Source: Deltaproteobacteria bacterium (GTDB taxonomy: Bacteria > UBA10199 > DSSB01 > JACPFA01). Taken from it: a stretch of 33,283 bases of DNA. This document shows, one piece after another, positions 1,412 through 16,098 of this stretch (positions are counted from its first letter, which is position 1; each line of letters starts with the position of its first letter). The position numbers were made by a program, and so were the translations under genes. Where the stretch lies: the NCBI GenBank assembly GCA_016183235.1, contig JACPFA010000026.1:1-33283 (forward strand), in the 5' to 3' direction. The notes beneath the pieces are model-generated. The model saw nothing but the letters and a program-made list of their open reading frames with translations, was not told the DNA's origin and searched no databases.

Positions 1412-1852
1412 TTAAAATTTCTGAATGGAATTATAATAATTTGTCATTGCGAGCGAGCCCTGAGCCTGCCCCGGCCCACGAGCCGGGGTGGCAATCTCAC
1501 CAGTTAAAACGGAAGATTGCTTCACCCCTAAAGGGGTTCGCAATGACAGATTACTTTGATAATAAACGGATCTCATAATAAGACGCCTTGTTTCAATCTG
1601 AGACTCATCTTCGTCGTCTGTTTCGTTTTGATCTTCTTCGACTGGGTCTTCTTCTTCACCAGCCTCTTCATCATCAGGCTTACTCGCGGATACATCAGGT
1701 GCTGCCTCAGACAAATCGCCGCTAGAAGCCGGGGCCGGATTCCCAACATCAACCACCGTGATTGGGGGAGTGGGGTTGCCTACATCCACAACCTCACCCC
1801 CACAACCCGCTAACATTAAAAACAAACTTAAGATTAACGCCCACTTTTTCAT
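1412..1852 (-). CDS. Small acidic lipoprotein with repeat-derived C-terminus
   Basis: A 146-residue predicted lipoprotein: MKKWALILSLFLMLAGC has the lipobox LAGC. The body is very acidic (a run rich in Glu and Asp around residues 60-85) and starts with a duplicated VDVGNP motif. The start at 1852 is preferred over 1858 because AGAGG lies six bases before it. The last ~50 residues are translated from two family A palindromes (1512-1549 and 1443-1497), so the original stop was probably earlier. It starts ten bases after the beta-propeller gene and belongs to the same unit. Function unknown. Confidence 0.72.
   Translation of the reverse strand: MKKWALILSLFLMLAGCGGEVVDVGNPTPPITVVDVGNPAPASSGDLSEAAPDVSASKPDDEEAGEEEDPVEEDQNETDDEDESQIETRRLIMRSVYYQSNLSLRTPLGVKQSSVLTGEIATPARGPGQAQGSLAMTNYYNSIQKF
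1443..1549. repeat. Head-to-head pair of family A repeats
   Basis: Two family A copies face each other: 1443-1497 (TGTCATTGCGAG...GCAATCTC, with an inner CCCCGGC...GCCGGGG hairpin) and 1512-1549 (GGAAGATTGC...GCAATGACAG, with an inner CCCCT...AGGGG hairpin). Both lie in the 3' coding part of the acidic lipoprotein gene and are translated. Confidence 0.75.
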
Positions 1853-1861
1853 GATCATCCT

Positions 1862-3847
1862 CTACCATACATAAGATTTAAGCATGCTCAATTGCCCATC
1901 TAACTGGTGCAGGCTCAAACCCTCGGTGGTTAACAAAATCAACACCTTGGTTTTACTATCCCCTAAAAAGATACTGCGTTGAACATGCTCAAGATCAGGC
2001 CCATATCCATATTCATTGGCATTGGTGCTCAATTGATAAGTCCCGGCCAAGGTAAAACTATTATCGGCATTGAGTTTATAAAGTTGCACTCCACTGTAAA
2101 GAAAAGGCCCATACTGGCTGCCACCAGCCGAGGGCCCATGCAAATCAATGGGTAAAGCTAGCATGGATAGAGTTGGATCATAGGTAAAGGCATGGGGTTC
2201 ATACAATGCTATCGAATCAGTGCCCCGCCCCCCTATGACGGAGGAAGAATCCTCTAATGGATCTGAAGGGTTAGTGACATCAAAGACCGAAAGCTTTAAC
2301 CCCTGAAACCAGGCAAAATCACCCATGTCTTCAGCATCGTTGCCCAAACCGATCAAATGGTTTTCATCAATAGGATGCAAATAGGTCGAAAAACCTGGCA
2401 CCTTGAGTTCACCCGCCACTTTAGGGTTCTTTGGATCTGCCAAATCAATCACAAAAAGTGGGTCCACTTTTTTAAAAGTCACCACATATCCCTTGGGGCC
2501 AATGAATCTTACGGCATAGATCTTTTCGCCTTTGGCAAGACCTTCTACTTTACCCAAAAGCTTTAACCCAGAATCTTGGGTATCTAAGGTGTAGACCTGG
2601 TTAACGGCCGAATTGTTACTCCCAAAACCACCGATGTCACCTTGGGTCGTCGCCACCCGTAAGGCCCCTTGCCATTCGCCCATGGCATATTCATTGAGCA
2701 AATGCCCATCAACTTGGCCACTACCGGTGTAAATTGGTTTTTCGGCCAAAGCAAAGCGATGAATAGCGGTTTGATCTTCACCCAACACACCCTCACTCAC
2801 ATAAAGGGCGCGCCCGCTGGCATAGATTAGATCGCTCAATCCCAACACCAAAGCATGTTGATCGGCTACAGTTACATCGGCAAAAGATACTGTGGTTACA
2901 TCCACCAAGAACTTCGCTGTATTATTAGAAGAGGCATAAAATTCAGTGCATTGGGCAGGATCTTCTGTAATAGCCCCATTAGCAGAAAGAGAATGGTAGG
3001 CTCTAGCCTGATAAGTTTTAGAAAAATCAAATTGATCGATCTGTTCTAAATTTTCTTTTTTCAGTTTTTCAATATACTTTACTAATTTTTCTTTACCCAA
3101 TACGGTGGCTTTTTCTTCTGCACAATCCACCAAATCATAGGGGATTGAATAACTCATGTTGGGTATCGACAATCCCACATTTGAAATCAAATGGATTTTA
3201 TCTCCAATCCGTCGATCGGCTGATAAATGGCCCGGATAATAAGACTCTCGCAATACCTTGGGGCTTTTGGGAGCACTTATATCTAAAACGGTCATTTGAG
3301 TAAAACCAGCTCCACTGTTTACTGGGCTTGTCTTAACTCCCACGGGTAACTGGTTATTCCAAACTTTGGATAGGATCACGACCTTGTTTTGAGAAAGATA
3401 GAGGGCCTCGGCTTCTCCATCAACAGCAAGACTCGCCAATAAAGTAAATTGGCTAACTGGCCATACTTGAAAGATATAAAATTTATTTTGACTCAAGGCA
3501 TAAACGTATTTGCCATCTGTTTTGATAAGATCGGATTCATCCACGCCTTTTTCCTGAACGTTCGTAGGGGTAAAAGTCGCAGCTTCACTCGCGGGAGAAG
3601 AAGCCAAAGATGGCGTAACGTCATAATAATATTTTACACAAAATTGATCCGGCTCTTTGAGATAGGCATCTAAGGGGTCATTCATTTGTTGAACGGCGCT
3701 GGTTTTGAGATAACTATTAACCTCGTCACAACTTTGCATCGGGGTCAGGCCTATTTTTTTCTGGAATGATCCGACAGGATCTTCGGCTGTACTTTGGCAA
3801 CCCACCCCTAATAAACTCAAAGCAATTAATAAGTAGAAGCGTTTCAT
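1862..3847 (-). CDS. Secreted beta-propeller lipoprotein (COG4880-type)
   Basis: A 661-residue predicted lipoprotein. The signal peptide ends in LGVGC, so Cys17 would be lipidated. The stretch NVQEKGVDESDLIKTDGKY is the hallmark of the beta-propeller domain family distantly related to WD40 repeats. Later blade-like repeats include MTVLDISAPKSPKVL, FVIDLADPKNPKVAGELKVP and LSVFDVTNPSDP. The family is exported and mostly uncharacterised; binding or scaffold roles are usually assumed. The start overlaps the TIGR02147 gene by four bases and is preceded by AAGGAC. The co-expression with a regulator-like gene is notable. Confidence 0.85.
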   Translation of the reverse strand: MKRFYLLIALSLLGVGCQSTAEDPVGSFQKKIGLTPMQSCDEVNSYLKTSAVQQMNDPLDAYLKEPDQFCVKYYYDVTPSLASSPASEAATFTPTNVQEKGVDESDLIKTDGKYVYALSQNKFYIFQVWPVSQFTLLASLAVDGEAEALYLSQNKVVILSKVWNNQLPVGVKTSPVNSGAGFTQMTVLDISAPKSPKVLRESYYPGHLSADRRIGDKIHLISNVGLSIPNMSYSIPYDLVDCAEEKATVLGKEKLVKYIEKLKKENLEQIDQFDFSKTYQARAYHSLSANGAITEDPAQCTEFYASSNNTAKFLVDVTTVSFADVTVADQHALVLGLSDLIYASGRALYVSEGVLGEDQTAIHRFALAEKPIYTGSGQVDGHLLNEYAMGEWQGALRVATTQGDIGGFGSNNSAVNQVYTLDTQDSGLKLLGKVEGLAKGEKIYAVRFIGPKGYVVTFKKVDPLFVIDLADPKNPKVAGELKVPGFSTYLHPIDENHLIGLGNDAEDMGDFAWFQGLKLSVFDVTNPSDPLEDSSSVIGGRGTDSIALYEPHAFTYDPTLSMLALPIDLHGPSAGGSQYGPFLYSGVQLYKLNADNSFTLAGTYQLSTNANEYGYGPDLEHVQRSIFLGDSKTKVLILLTTEGLSLHQLDGQLSMLKSYVW

Positions 3848-4884: not shown

Positions 4885-5159
4885 AGTAATGCCTCAGTTT
4901 TAGGGGTTTAACTTTCCTCAACCCGCGCGGAATTTATCCTGAGGCTCGGCGAAGGACTCCTCGTATTCGCACTTAAAAAACATTAGTTTGTTTGGAAGCT
5001 TGTCCCGAGGTTTTACGAGGGATCTCCTCGTTCGTAGGAGATCCTTCGCTAAGGCTCAGGACAGGCTTCTACAAACTATATGTTTTTTAAGTGCTCATGA
5101 CTCGTCGTTCTCGCGCAAAGGGTTTCGGAAAGCTAAACCCCTAAAACTGAGGCATTACT
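4885..5159. repeat. Large nested fold-back palindrome 1
   Basis: Outer arms 4885-4910 and 5134-5159 are perfect 26-bp inverted copies. A second arm pair lies at 4969-4991 and 5071-5094 (15 bp perfect, one extra T, then 8 bp), and a central hairpin GGATCTCCT/AGGAGATCC at 5020-5044. Between these the two halves still pair imperfectly. It fills the space between the TIGR02147 promoter region and the RHH/PIN module. No coding region is convincing inside it. Confidence 0.8.
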
Positions 5160-5456: not shown

Positions 5457-5875
5457 GGGTGGTATTTGATACAAACATTTTTATTTCAGGTTTACTTTTT
5501 AAAGGAGGCATCCCCTCAAGACTTATAGACTTAGCTCACGACAAAAAATTCGATCTCTTCTTTTCTCCCGAAATTTTGGAAGAAATAAAAAGGGTCTCTC
5601 AACTGAAGTTTGAGTTAACCCTCCATGAAAGAGATCGTTTGTTAAGTTTTATCGAAAAGCTAGGTGCTAAAGTTTATCCATCCCAAGAAGTTAGCTTGAT
5701 CAAAAATGACTGGACCGATAATCGTATTTTGGAATGTGCTCTGGAGGCAGAGGCTGATTATCTGGTTACGGGAGACAAAAAACATCTTCTCCATCTTACC
5801 CATTCCTTTTCTTTCCAAATTGTACTACCCACTCATTTCTACAAAATTTACTATACTAACAAGTCCTCTGTATAG
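5453..5875 (+). CDS. PIN-family putative toxin (TIGR00305-like)
   Basis: A 140-residue PIN protein of the family annotated as putative toxin component. RVVFDTNIFISGLL carries the first aspartate (Asp6), SPEILEEIKRV the conserved glutamates, and DNRILECALEAEADYLVTGD the later acidic cluster. It starts at GTG 5453, overlapping the RHH gene stop. The last residues, TNKSSV and the stop codon, lie inside the left arm of fold-back palindrome 2. The convergent gene ends in TNKSSI from the mirror arm. Confidence 0.85.
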   Translation: MRVVFDTNIFISGLLFKGGIPSRLIDLAHDKKFDLFFSPEILEEIKRVSQLKFELTLHERDRLLSFIEKLGAKVYPSQEVSLIKNDWTDNRILECALEAEADYLVTGDKKHLLHLTHSFSFQIVLPTHFYKIYYTNKSSV

Positions 5876-6030
5876 GCTACAGATTGCGAGGATTATGTGG
5901 CGAGAGAAGGAAGATGAGCAAAAAGCCCGCAGGCGTACCTTAGGGTACGTCGAGGACTTTTTGCGAAATCTGACGCGCTCGCAGCCCATAAACCGAAGCA
6001 AGCTGTAGCCTATATAGAGGACTTGTTAGT
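5855..6030. repeat. Large nested fold-back palindrome 2
   Basis: Outer arms 5855-5882 and 6003-6030 match at 27 of 28 positions. An inner pair GCAAAAAG (5918-5925) and CTTTTTGC (5957-5964) and a central GCGTACC...GGTACGT hairpin (5933-5950) share the same centre. The stop codons of two convergent genes lie in the two arms, so it may act as a bidirectional transcription end. The loop, with GCGTAC...GTACGT followed by GAGGA, resembles the loop of fold-back 5. Confidence 0.8.
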
Positions 6031-6426
6031 AAGATTGCCTTGCCACTGCTCAATTTGTTGGCGGTATTGAAGATAAGTTTCTGCAGCCAAAGATGACAAG
6101 CTTTCTTGATCTTTAAGCATCTCTAATTTTCGAATGATCTCTTTAAAGAGATGTATCTCTTCATTCCTTTTTTCGTGGGCAGGTTGCCAATCAACCACGC
6201 TTGAATTGCCTAAGGCGTTAAGCTCCCGGTCAAGTTCTGAAAAAATATTTTCTAAAATTTTTATATGAAGCAAGATGGATTGAAGCCCCTCTTCAAATGG
6301 CAAGGTGTCGGGGGCCCTGGCTTCTGAGAGTGGAACCAAAAATTCATACAGTTCACTGGCCAAATAGGCCCAGGTGATTTCGAACTGTTTTTCTAAGTCG
6401 GTTATGGTTTCGAATTGTTCGTTCAT
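6010..6426 (-). CDS. Small helical protein of unknown function
   Basis: A 138-residue soluble protein with no signal peptide or membrane segment. It is rich in Glu, Leu and Gln and reads as helical throughout (for example LFKEIIRKLEMLKDQESL). I do not recognise a family; chaperone-like or flagellar FliT-like helical bundles are possible but unsupported. There is no clear ribosome-binding site before ATG 6426. The C-terminal TNKSSI is encoded by the arm of fold-back 2 and nearly matches the C-terminus of the convergent PIN toxin. Confidence 0.6.
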   Translation of the reverse strand: MNEQFETITDLEKQFEITWAYLASELYEFLVPLSEARAPDTLPFEEGLQSILLHIKILENIFSELDRELNALGNSSVVDWQPAHEKRNEEIHLFKEIIRKLEMLKDQESLSSLAAETYLQYRQQIEQWQGNLTNKSSI

Positions 6427-12936: not shown

Positions 12937-13064
12937 CTGTCATTGCGAACTCTGTCATTGCGAGGCAAGCCAGCCGAAGCAATCTCCTCTGTTTAACCGA
13001 TGGGATTGCTTCACCCTGCTGGGTTCGCAATGACAGAGGGGGTGGCTAGCCTCGCAATGACAGA
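12937..13064. repeat. Cluster of family A repeats
   Basis: At least three partial or complete family A units are packed together: CTGTCATTGCGAAC, CTGTCATTGCGAGGC...GAAGCAATCTC, GGGATTGCTTC...GTTCGCAATGACAG, and a final CTCGCAATGACAG. Orientation alternates. The distal unit supplies the last six codons and the stop of pdxA. Confidence 0.75.
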
Positions 13065-13918
13065 AGGTCCCTATTCTTCACAATTTCAATTGCCATCTCA
13101 ATCGCGGCAATCATGCTCGATGGATCCGCAATTCCTTGACCTGCAATGTCAAAAGCCGTTCCATGGTCTGGGCTAGTACGCACTAAAGGTAACCCTAAGG
13201 TTACATTGACTCCATCTTTAAAATGCAAAAGCTTAAACGGAATGAGCCCCTGATCGTGGTACATACACACCACTGCATCATATTTTCCATCAACCGCCTC
13301 ATGAAAAATCGCATCCGGCACCTTGGGCCCAACACAGGCTACACCTTGAGCCTGGCAAATTTCAATAGCAGGAGCAATGATTTCGATTTCTTCTCGACCA
13401 AATTTGCCTTTCTCTCCTGCATGCGGGTTAAGCCCGCATACCGCTAGCCTAGGTTTTTCAATATTGAAATCTTTTTTGAGGCCGGCATGGGTTAATTGGA
13501 TGGTTTTGATAATTTTTGCTTGGGTCAAAAGACTTGGCACCTTGGATAAAGGCTCATGGATGGTTACCAAGGCCACTTTCAAATTAGTCGCGGCCATCAT
13601 CATTAAAAAATCGGCAGTGTTTGTTTTGCTCGCCAAATATTCGGTGTGCCCAGGAAAACCAAAGCCCGCCAGGCTTACATGTTCTTTGGAAATAGGGGCG
13701 GTTACTAGGGCATCAAATTGACCCGTAGAATAATCTTGCATAGCCGCTTCAAGAAATTCGATCGAAGCCTTGCCGGCGGAACGTGCATCTAAAGCCTTGC
13801 CTTGTTCTCCATAAACTTTAAATTGAACGGGGGCGTTGGAATAATGGGGTAGGGCTTTGGCCACAATCTCTGGGCCTATGCCAAGCGGGTCTCCGATTGT
13901 AATAGCGATGCGTATCAT
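13046..13918 (-). CDS. pdxA: 4-hydroxythreonine-4-phosphate dehydrogenase
   Basis: A 290-residue PdxA, an NAD-dependent enzyme of the DXP-dependent pyridoxal phosphate pathway. GDPLGIGPEI, FPGHTEYLA (metal His), LNPHAGE (metal His) and MYHDQGLIPFK (metal His) are all intact. It is about 35-40 residues shorter than most homologues; the missing part lies after VYGEQGKALD, before the VTAPISKE strand. The C-terminal LLSLRG is encoded by a family A repeat. ATG 13918 is preferred to a preceding TTG; no clear ribosome-binding site. It follows the surA-like gene with an 89-base gap full of repeats. Confidence 0.93.
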   Translation of the reverse strand: MIRIAITIGDPLGIGPEIVAKALPHYSNAPVQFKVYGEQGKALDARSAGKASIEFLEAAMQDYSTGQFDALVTAPISKEHVSLAGFGFPGHTEYLASKTNTADFLMMMAATNLKVALVTIHEPLSKVPSLLTQAKIIKTIQLTHAGLKKDFNIEKPRLAVCGLNPHAGEKGKFGREEIEIIAPAIEICQAQGVACVGPKVPDAIFHEAVDGKYDAVVCMYHDQGLIPFKLLHFKDGVNVTLGLPLVRTSPDHGTAFDIAGQGIADPSSMIAAIEMAIEIVKNRDLLSLRG

Positions 13919-14007: not shown

Positions 14008-14982
14008 TTAAATCTTAACCTCAATATAAGCCGACTCGCGAAGTTTTTCTAAATATTTTTTCAACTCTTCTTGCATTTTATATTCCATAACCTTTTCGCG
14101 AATCTGCCCTTTGATTAAATTACGATCGACGTCTGACAAACCACTTTGTTCCACCAAGAAAATCAAATGGAGCCCATGCTCCGAACGAATGGGCTTGCTT
14201 ACCTGGCCTGGCTTTAAACCAACCAGGGCTTCTTTGATGCTGGGGTTGAGTGAACTCACCGTATATTTTTCAGGTTTGGCCAAACCAGGATCCATCGAAT
14301 ATTTTTCAGCTAACTTCGCAAAAACCTTAAAGCTGGTGGATTGCTTTTGAATCGCAATGGCCTGATCAATGGCGTGGTTAAGCTGCTCATCATTGGCACT
14401 AGCCGGCAGAGGCAAAATGAGTTGGGCTAATTTGACTTCGCCTACCGATTGTAAAGCCTGCCCATGTTGGTCTAGAAAACGATTATAGTCTTCTTCGGTC
14501 ACGGTCACCGAGTTTGCCAAAACCTTATTAAAAAATTTAAACCGGGTTAACTGCTGACGCAGCTGATTTTGATAACTGACAAACGGTGTGCCTTTTTTAG
14601 CTAATTCTTTTTTTAATTGATCTACTGTAATCCCATTATTTTTAGCCACGCTGGCAACCGCTTCGTCAACTTCTTGCTCAGTCACCTCAATTTTTTTATT
14701 CTTAATTTCTTGGTTAAAAAGTTTTTCTTCAATGAGGAACCGCAGTGCGGCCTGTTTTAGGTTGTCACCCGCAGCTATTTTTTGATGAGCAAGACTATTA
14801 ATAACTCGTTTCAAATCTAATTCTGTAATAATTTCAGAATTTACAATGGCCACCACCCGATCAACGGTTTCGGCCTTAGCCACATATGCAAATAAAAACA
14901 TACAGAGTACTAAGGTAGTAAAACTAATTCTTTGAGATTGCTTCGGCTTCGCCTCGCAATGACAGGGAATGCATTTTTTCAT
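14008..14982 (-). CDS. SurA-like periplasmic peptidyl-prolyl isomerase
   Basis: A 324-residue exported foldase. After a hydrophobic signal segment (about residues 19-37, ending AKA) comes the SurA-type N-domain (VDRVVAIVNSEIITELDLKRVI), then a single parvulin-like domain (about residues 175-285, ending SEHGLHLIFLVE). Such proteins help outer-membrane proteins fold. The start overlaps the upstream parvulin gene stop (ATGA). Residues about 5-17 (IPCHCEAKPKQSQ) are translated from a family A repeat, which lengthens the region before the hydrophobic core of the signal peptide. Confidence 0.88.
   Translation of the reverse strand: MKKCIPCHCEAKPKQSQRISFTTLVLCMFLFAYVAKAETVDRVVAIVNSEIITELDLKRVINSLAHQKIAAGDNLKQAALRFLIEEKLFNQEIKNKKIEVTEQEVDEAVASVAKNNGITVDQLKKELAKKGTPFVSYQNQLRQQLTRFKFFNKVLANSVTVTEEDYNRFLDQHGQALQSVGEVKLAQLILPLPASANDEQLNHAIDQAIAIQKQSTSFKVFAKLAEKYSMDPGLAKPEKYTVSSLNPSIKEALVGLKPGQVSKPIRSEHGLHLIFLVEQSGLSDVDRNLIKGQIREKVMEYKMQEELKKYLEKLRESAYIEVKI
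14934..14965. repeat. Family A repeat inside the surA-like signal peptide
   Basis: GAGATTGCTTCGGC...GCCTCGCAATGACAG lies in frame just after the start codon of the surA-like gene and encodes the N-terminal part of its signal peptide. Confidence 0.75.
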
Positions 14983-15932
14983 AACGTTACCTTTTTCAAG
15001 ATATTTTGAAAAATGACTACTTTGTTTTCTTGCCTAACTTTTAAAACGTAGTCTTTAAATTTCTGTTCCTTTTTTTCTAATTCAAGTTGCTGCCTAATTT
15101 TAGGGGCAACTTCTTCTAAACTTTTTCGCGTGGCTGGCCTAAAGGCAATCACTTTAAAAACATGAAACCCATAACTGCTGGGAATGATCGGCGAAATTTC
15201 GCCTGGTTTCATAGTAAAGCACACATCATAGACCTTAGGAAAGGTGCCTTTGGGAATAAATCCCAAATCTCCCCCCGCTTTTTTTTCAGGAGAAATCGAC
15301 AAATTGCTGGCTAGGCTTGCAAAGTTTTCACCTTTCATCAAACGATCGTGGATATTTTGCGCCTTTTCTTGAGTATCCGTCACAATTTGACGAATATGAA
15401 CCGATTCGGGCACATTCCATTCTTGATCATGTTGCTGATAATAATTTTTGATCTCCTCTTCGGTAACCACCCCATCACCTAACACCCCACTATTGAGAAA
15501 TTTCGCCACTAAGAAATTTTCTTTTTTAATGGCCTTCCATACATGATAGTCAATCCCGCGTTTAGCCAGCATGGCTTGAAAATCTTTTTCGCTATAGCCA
15601 CTTTTGTATTTAGAAACTTCTTGCTCTAATTCTGCATCACTCACCACAAAGCCCTGGTCTTGCGCCTTCTGCACCATAAGCCGTTTATTGATTAAATCCT
15701 CTAAAGTTTTTTCTTTAAGCTTGGCAAATTCGGCCCGTTGTTCAAATTTTTCCGGTGGCAAAATCCCCTTTTGCCGATTGAGACTATCCCGCAACTCCCC
15801 CACCGAAATACGCTCCTCCCCCACCATCGCAAGTGTGTCGGAATCAGAAACTCTTGCACATGAGGAGAAAAGAAAAACCTGCAGAAAAATAAGAATGGTC
15901 TGCATAAAGAGGTGGTGACTACGTCTTTTCAT
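14979..15932 (-). CDS. PpiC/PrsA-like parvulin lipoprotein
   Basis: A 317-residue predicted lipoprotein isomerase. MKRRSHHLFMQ is followed by a hydrophobic stretch ending in the lipobox-like FSSC. The SurA-type N-domain (VGEERISVGELRDSLNR) precedes a complete parvulin domain (VHIRQIVTD, KAGGDLGFIPKGTFPKVYD, SYGFHVFKV). The start at 15932 has a GAGG upstream; the open frame runs further but overlaps mfd and reads through a palindrome. The start and first codons lie inside an arm of fold-back 4. It follows mfd and is coupled to the surA-like gene. Confidence 0.88.
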   Translation of the reverse strand: MKRRSHHLFMQTILIFLQVFLFSSCARVSDSDTLAMVGEERISVGELRDSLNRQKGILPPEKFEQRAEFAKLKEKTLEDLINKRLMVQKAQDQGFVVSDAELEQEVSKYKSGYSEKDFQAMLAKRGIDYHVWKAIKKENFLVAKFLNSGVLGDGVVTEEEIKNYYQQHDQEWNVPESVHIRQIVTDTQEKAQNIHDRLMKGENFASLASNLSISPEKKAGGDLGFIPKGTFPKVYDVCFTMKPGEISPIIPSSYGFHVFKVIAFRPATRKSLEEVAPKIRQQLELEKKEQKFKDYVLKVRQENKVVIFQNILKKVTL

Positions 15933-16098
15933 TGGCCTCGCCGAAGCGGCGGGCCCTTCATGCGAGTCAGTGGGCATGGAAAGCCGCGGCCCGCCGTAGG
16001 CGGGAACGCGGAAGGCTTCCATGCCCACTGGCTCCATGAAGGTCGCCGCGAGAGGCGCCAGCCAATGAAAAGACGTAGTCACCACCTCTTTATGCAGA
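15899..16098. repeat. Large nested fold-back palindrome 4
   Basis: Perfect 38-bp outer arms (15899-15936 and 16061-16098). The interior pairs imperfectly (CAGTGGGCATGGAA against TTCCATGCCCACTG) down to a central CCCGCC/GGCGGG hairpin at 15990-16004. The mfd stop (16090-16092) lies in one arm and the start of the parvulin lipoprotein (15932) in the other. Transcripts through it would form a long stem that hides the second gene's start. Confidence 0.85.

Follow-up and report, generated by a model that had tools for sequence, protein, structure and literature searches.

The CGTC-tagged REPs described by Di Nocera, De Gregorio and Rocco in 2013 (PMC3733652) are placed in five phyla, mostly in alphaproteobacteria, and include a documented TGTC variant. 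Their unit comprises a stem of 8-9 bp, a loop of 4-5 nt and a short tail that is often CCA, and the units occur mostly as head-to-head dimers. According to the same paper, REPs can lie within coding sequence or where ORFs end, stop codons can come from GTAG REPs, and RPE-4 and RPE-6 are classed among the CGTC REPs, which are said there to be without a dedicated transposase. Rickettsia palindromic elements (RPEs), first described as sequences of about 150 bp with a conserved peptide (PMC10969869), are translated in frame inside unrelated proteins (PMC10969869, PMC3733652). In Coxiella burnetii, QMITE1 and QMITE2 overlap the 3′ ends of functional genes by 1-50 bp, with six such genes named for QMITE1 and five for QMITE2; the enhC gene of this species carries a 33-residue element-derived tail in one strain and an indel-made stop before the element in another (PMC5896051).

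The window analysed here, the whole stretch of 33,283 nucleotides, contains an acidic lipoprotein gene whose tail is a fresh example of the repeat-derived C-termini already in print. The tail resembles that of Coxiella enhC in having an element-derived C-terminus and in sharing the same ambiguity between insertion and indel, while the Coxiella QMITE is a different element from the REP of the window (PMC5896051). The features of the locus are as follows.

1412..1858, minus strand: lipoprotein ORF of 148 aa, with signal peptide, lipobox LAGC, two DVGNP motifs, acidic tract and repeat-derived tail
1412..1441, minus strand: codons after the dimer, NYYNSIQKF and the stop TAA
1442..1548, no strand: head-to-head REP dimer, 107 bp core to core, encoding residues 104-139 (36 aa, 24% of the protein)
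1442..1498, plus strand: second arm, TGTCATTGCGAG ... GGCAATCTC, with an extra G+C-rich hairpin
1499..1511, no strand: central dimer spacer, 13 nt
1512..1548, minus strand: first arm in gene sense, TGTCATTGCGA ... GAAGCAATCTTC
1550..1591, minus strand: codons between the acidic tract and the dimer, TRRLIMRSVYYQSN, with weak coding signal
1862..3847, minus strand: upstream neighbour of the lipoprotein, encoding a secreted beta-propeller protein (PF09826), which a GNP-motif lipoprotein adjoins in many relatives

The N-terminus of the lipoprotein ORF, MIMKKWALILSLFLMLAGCGGEVVDVGNP, is a lipoprotein signal by reading, as is the assignment of the LAGC lipobox, and is followed by the acidic stretch and then the tail. 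The 3′ part of the gene crosses two inverted repeat copies, which run in gene sense (1548 to 1442) as TGTCATTGCGAACCCC...GAAGCAATCTTC, the 13-nt spacer and an inverted arm ending ...CTCGCAATGACA. Tail residues LSLR...LAMT are read from the dimer and the stop lies 27 nt beyond. Judged from its letters, the lipoprotein tail is a REP dimer readable as coding sequence.

The sequence-only reading had described two head-to-head copies in the 3′ part of the gene. The inverted copies are real, and they make up one composite unit, a 107-bp dimer with a longer second arm, since head-to-head dimers recur in the genome sample (48 found). Its estimate of about 50 repeat-derived residues shrinks to the 36 (residues 104-139) supplied by 1442-1548, because the span it took as repeat, 1412-1560, also includes NYYNSIQKF after the dimer and a few codons before it. 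The low complexity that it attributed to the tail belongs to the acidic tract ahead of the repeat.

The predicted RNA fold of 1430-1560, computed for the whole dimer, in which the inner part of the arms is variable, reached -58.5 kcal/mol (z -5.81, with 0 of 200 shuffles as good). Searches found no intrinsic terminator within 1300-1900 and no Rfam family at gathering score within the window, and inspection of the dimer flanks by eye revealed no clear target-site duplication. The larger palindrome GGCCTATGA...TCATAGGCC was tried as a source of empty copies; both of its matches in a 796-kb sample contain the core, so neither is an empty site.

Copy-number analysis placed these arms in an abundant family. 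The window holds 13 sequences that match TGTCATTGCGAG with at most two mismatches, whereas 100 shuffles averaged 1.99 and never exceeded 6, and the 11-nt core TGTCATTGCGA has 464 exact copies in the 2.61-Mb genome, against 0 for its reversed control. With up to one mismatch allowed, the 796-kb sample holds 206 cores (reversed control, 2) and a 1.12-Mb sample holds 256 (reversed core, 3). Head-to-head dimers in the 796-kb sample measure 40-135 bp, most commonly 82 bp, and contain 96 of the 206 cores, a count that misses partners with more than one core mismatch. An open frame across a dimer is unremarkable: the LSLR frame, which is that of the lipoprotein, runs without a stop through 36 of 96 dimer strands, compared with 28 for the CHCE frame and 38 for the SVIA frame. 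Core counts in relatives of the same class reach 207 in G035, 189 in G021, 142 in G020 and 84 in G009, and the core is absent or nearly so in seven genomes of the same order (0-3 each).

By description, the repeat resembles the TGTC variant of the CGTC REP superfamily. Like the CGTC REPs of PMC3733652, it is a short high-copy palindrome with a terminal motif that is often TGTC and a stem starting with AT, and it forms head-to-head dimers near 3′ ORF ends, with some copies inside ORFs. Unlike the CGTC REPs, which that paper describes as predominantly dimeric, about half of the cores in the window's genome lie in head-to-head dimers. Unlike RPEs as the cited papers present them, the repeat uses more than one frame, and the counted cases are at gene ends. 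A literature search by the repeat's letters returned no relevant title.

An intact Y1_Tnp (RAYT-like) ORF, L032:1456-1956, was considered as a mobiliser. It is flanked by two cores of like orientation (from 1403 and 1994; span 1403-2004), an arrangement found among the fetched loci in the window's genome alone: 27 of 29 fetched Y1_Tnp loci of relatives contain no core, and two contain one each. Y1_Tnp counts correlate weakly with repeat counts across 46 genomes (Spearman 0.37, p 0.011, uncorrected for phylogeny), G035 has its 207 cores and no Y1_Tnp match, and the ORF is a doubtful candidate. A comparison with solved structures gave two matches that are not meaningful (E 0.77 and 0.8). Where the HUH pair of histidines is expected, the ORF reads GYHLL by eye, so it may be inactive.

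To place the repeat relative to genes, we applied our own simple hexamer gene caller to 1,122,668 bases (43% of the genome), which yielded 995 genes at 89% coding. In this sample 74 of 256 cores fell inside called genes, the distribution of a high-copy, mostly intergenic repeat. Among 902 genes of at least 100 aa, a core starts 0-9 nt past the stop in 43, 10-19 nt past it in 8 and 20-29 nt past it in 11; the corresponding bins upstream of starts hold 10, 9 and 6. The repeats thus crowd onto gene ends, as PMC3733652 describes for other REPs, and the commonest arrangement is a stop, 0-9 nt and a core.

In the 43% sample a core falls in the final 160 nt of eleven genes, one of them the lipoprotein gene. 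They come from 14 listed ORFs, of which C1:1326, C11:18979 and C14:8695 were dropped as chance cores on a by-eye judgement that the protein looked ordinary; two of these three are in the LSLR frame. The ORF at C13:67717, whose stop falls within a core, was left out because that core is not wholly inside the ORF. The eleven genes are listed with the residues from core to stop.

1412..1858, minus strand: lipoprotein, 45 residues
L037:7910-8869: LipA, 38 residues
L045:11679-13274: NuoM, 35 residues
Transketolase N-terminal half: 18 residues
MMPL-family protein: 17 residues
Thrombospondin-type-3-repeat protein: 16 residues
Radical-SAM protein: 14 residues
L045:5972-7441: NuoG, 14 residues
Folate dehydrogenase/cyclohydrolase: 6 residues
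13046..13921, minus strand: PdxA, 5 residues, with LSLRG and the stop within a repeat copy (13046-13067)
HMGL-like protein: 3 residues

NuoG is shorter than its profile (489 aa versus 606) and may have been truncated by the repeat.

The tails of these eleven genes use the LSLR frame in nine cases, the CHCE frame in two and the SVIA frame in none. This bias was noticed post hoc and would arise about once in 700 with equal frames, before allowing for the choice of frame; such a bias was not met in the cited passages of the REP, MITE and RPE literature. It is improbable, in our estimate, that stop codons are a favoured landing zone where insertions gave about 1% of proteins, central enzymes included, tails that are mostly in the LSLR frame (9 of 11). 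If that were true, the bias would reflect insertion chemistry or selection against other tails, for example via C-terminal degradation signals. The NuoM tail of G009 uses the SVIA (third) frame and counts against a general LSLR rule.

For LipA, detected in 41 of the 46 genomes of the class (own included), and for PdxA, the repeat core lies beyond every listed profile match. All 10 listed NCBIfam matches to LipA stop at or before residue 280, with the core from 282, and all 11 listed matches to PdxA stop at or before residue 284, with the core from 287. The 29 fetched LipA homologues show no core in the 160 nt that precede the stop or the 150 nt that follow it, and they end 11-37 residues from RSSY (counted from R), versus 52 in the window's genome. 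In six genomes (G001, G007, G014, G015, G017 and G019) the LipA alignment passes residue 281 by 1-16 residues; three of these alignments cross a stop codon, and all four loci fetched from this group are free of the core. The LipA tail also matches C15:21328-21423 of the same genome (32 residues, 78%); this second site contains a stop and has a core nearby. LipA of the window's genome combines a stop in or after the element with a tail that is absent from the fetched homologues.

NuoM is a weaker control than LipA, because two models pass the core and some repeat-free homologues have long tails. The five best NCBIfam models end at 483-497, with the core at 497, and of the 25 models shown two extend beyond the start of the core, to residues 499 and 505. 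Among the matches listed, alignments continue past residue 497 in G009 (to 510), G019 (504), G040 (502), G014 (501) and G001 (500), and a distant relative in G002 aligns to residue 516. The anchor was located in 28 of 29 fetched NuoM homologues, of which that of G009 alone has cores near its stop; in the repeat-free homologues the tail after the anchor spans 66-129 residues (129 in L150), versus 110 in the window's genome.

The NuoM gene of G009 (L147) carries a dimer directly ahead of the old stop region, in the SVIA frame (...SNRGVIARTPSVARRTK...), and is read nearly through it, stopping at a TGA in the last arm. Its counterpart in G020, a genome of the same genus, reads STENFVKLVKR and then a stop, without a repeat (L149). 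These two genes provide the clearest filled-and-empty comparison of the analysis, although the genomes are too diverged to delimit the insert exactly. Given its different frame, the G009 nuoM dimer is probably independent of that in the window's genome.

Comparisons of the lipoprotein itself gave no family in Pfam or NCBIfam, and among 60 genomes (own included) it matched only itself, with 0 matches in the 59 others. The search for homologues and their stop positions that the sequence-only reading had proposed as a check therefore returned no close homologue; it uncovered neither the same tail without a repeat, which that reading had named as grounds for refutation, nor a homologue marking the former end of the protein. 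Relative to an enhC-type tail, the stop after the element is present and no homologue spans the C-terminus. The lipoprotein itself ranks among the weaker examples.

The genomic neighbourhood supplied more distant relatives. The propeller gene is present in 21 of 46 class genomes (own included), a small GNP-motif lipoprotein adjoins it in many fetched loci, and a scan of the genome contigs with the propeller protein gave one distant locus. Across the class, short lipoproteins with a GNP motif just past the lipid cysteine (TETGNP, TDVGNP, TEVGNP) adjoin PF09826 genes on either side, for example at L055, L056, L060, L061, L064 and L067. The nearest syntenic lipoproteins, those of G009 and G035, share signal peptide, lipobox and DVGNPT with that of the window (E 3e-07 and 2e-08, each a single comparison); they continue, by eye, for about 100 residues that the window's lipoprotein lacks. 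Their alignments span 28-29 residues at the N-terminus alone, and the two give no ancestral stop. No repeat core was found in 26 other fetched propeller-gene loci, several of which are overlapping fetches of one gene.

We give an even chance to an insertion ahead of the stop as the event that created the lipoprotein tail. A mobile or once-mobile TGTC-type palindrome would insert mainly in intergenic DNA, very often at 3′ gene ends; a dimer would have landed just upstream of the original stop codon, and the frame would then run through 36 repeat residues (LSLR...LAMT) before stopping 27 nt beyond. The proposal that a new tail arose from noncoding repeats by insertion is supported as to its source. 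The repeat lies mostly outside genes and abuts stops, ten other sampled genes end in or beyond copies, and the fetched LipA and NuoM homologues have no end repeat, save one NuoM with its own dimer. Its other half, insertion in the lipoprotein gene itself, finds neither a close homologue nor an empty site, and the frame analysis leaves room for an indel or stop loss.

Elsewhere in the window, a single in-frame copy sits near the start of another gene.

14008..14982, minus strand: SurA-like gene, with a single repeat at 14934-14964 in frame near the start (CHCEAKPKQSQ; MKKCIPCHCEAKPKQSQRIS...)

The copy occupies part of the first 20 codons, after MKKCIP and ahead of the signal peptide's hydrophobic stretch, and the profile match starts at residue 22 (profile position 5). 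Going by this gene model, in-frame insertion of the repeat is tolerated in the window's genome. The start of the SurA-like gene overlaps an upstream stop (ATGA).

A serious rival to insertion, to which we assign somewhat less than an even chance, holds that the dimer already lay in the 3′ flank after the original stop and that a small indel or a stop-loss substitution opened the frame into it; the tail would still be repeat-derived, and the gene end would not have been created by repeat insertion. This possibility gains weight because the coding signal fades some 40 nt ahead of the dimer and another frame reaches a stop 2 nt short of it. The in-frame hexamer score per 60 nt is 10-16 over the acidic tract and drops past about 1590, to 3.0 at 1618-1559 and -1.6 at 1588-1529. 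Over the 39 nt before the dimer it is -0.6, versus 2.3 (sd 3.1) for gene ends and -6.7 (sd 6.0) for 3′ flanks of 211 genes. Over 36 nt the actual frame scores -0.6 by hexamer and -1.7 by codon, compared with 2.0 (sd 3.0) and 1.8 (sd 2.1) for 672 gene ends and with -1.4 (sd 3.4) and 0.1 (sd 2.2) for 1086 open flanking stretches, so that its codon score is 1.7 sd under gene ends.

The other frame over 1550..1591 reads KASYYEIRLLSK with gene-end-like hexamers (2.7; codon score -0.1), and its closing TAA is 2 nt from the core, at the spacing usual for this repeat: a stop, 0-9 nt and a core is the arrangement seen in dozens of other genes. Coxiella enhC offers a precedent, as an indel there puts the stop right before the element in one strain (PMC5896051). 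Against this, the scores cover 36-39 nt and differ by about one to two standard deviations, AT-rich DNA could well have a near-core stop in one of its two other frames, and just upstream the KASYYEIRLLSK frame meets two TGA codons, so any shift must be confined to a short stretch. The frame scores weakly favour an indel or stop loss.

An error of sequence or assembly, in which a spurious indel, close to the acidic tract or within the repeat, hides a real protein end before the dimer, is very unlikely. The same frame evidence would fit it, the genome is a draft in 51 contigs, and short high-copy repeats are prone to misassembly; the anatomy of the dimer is normal, however, and ten other sampled genes run into repeats, so an open frame into a repeat requires no error. 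That the ORF is not a real gene, and hence has no tail to account for, is less likely still: it has no Pfam or NCBIfam family and no match outside its own genome, but it carries a signal peptide and lipobox, shares DVGNPT with the lipoproteins that adjoin this propeller gene in two relatives (E 3e-07 and 2e-08) and has positive in-frame hexamer scores from 1858 to about 1590.

The window holds further inverted repeats. In a perfect 38-nt inverted repeat (15899-15936 and 16061-16098, 124 nt between the arms), the stop of an mfd-like gene (identified by reading; 16090) falls inside an arm; this may thus be a gene ended by a second repeat family. Two more inverted-repeat pairs of 34-40 nt, 93-94% complementary, lie at 4885-5159 and 5854-6031, near small ORFs that read as toxin-antitoxin-like.

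Returning to the tail as an insertion product, we infer that it would be translated and that the cell tolerates it as a probably neutral extension of a lipid-anchored acidic protein, which is probably unstructured elsewhere. The tail most likely has no specific function, the repeat being what looks like a remnant of mobile DNA. By analogy, the dimer hairpin may influence how the mRNA decays from its 3′ side, an effect hypothesised for REPs (PMC3733652). Collectively, these observations add a lineage to the bacteria whose palindromic repeats make coding sequence, and the conserved enzymes, LipA above all, serve as internal controls for the lengthening of proteins by repeats at stop codons.
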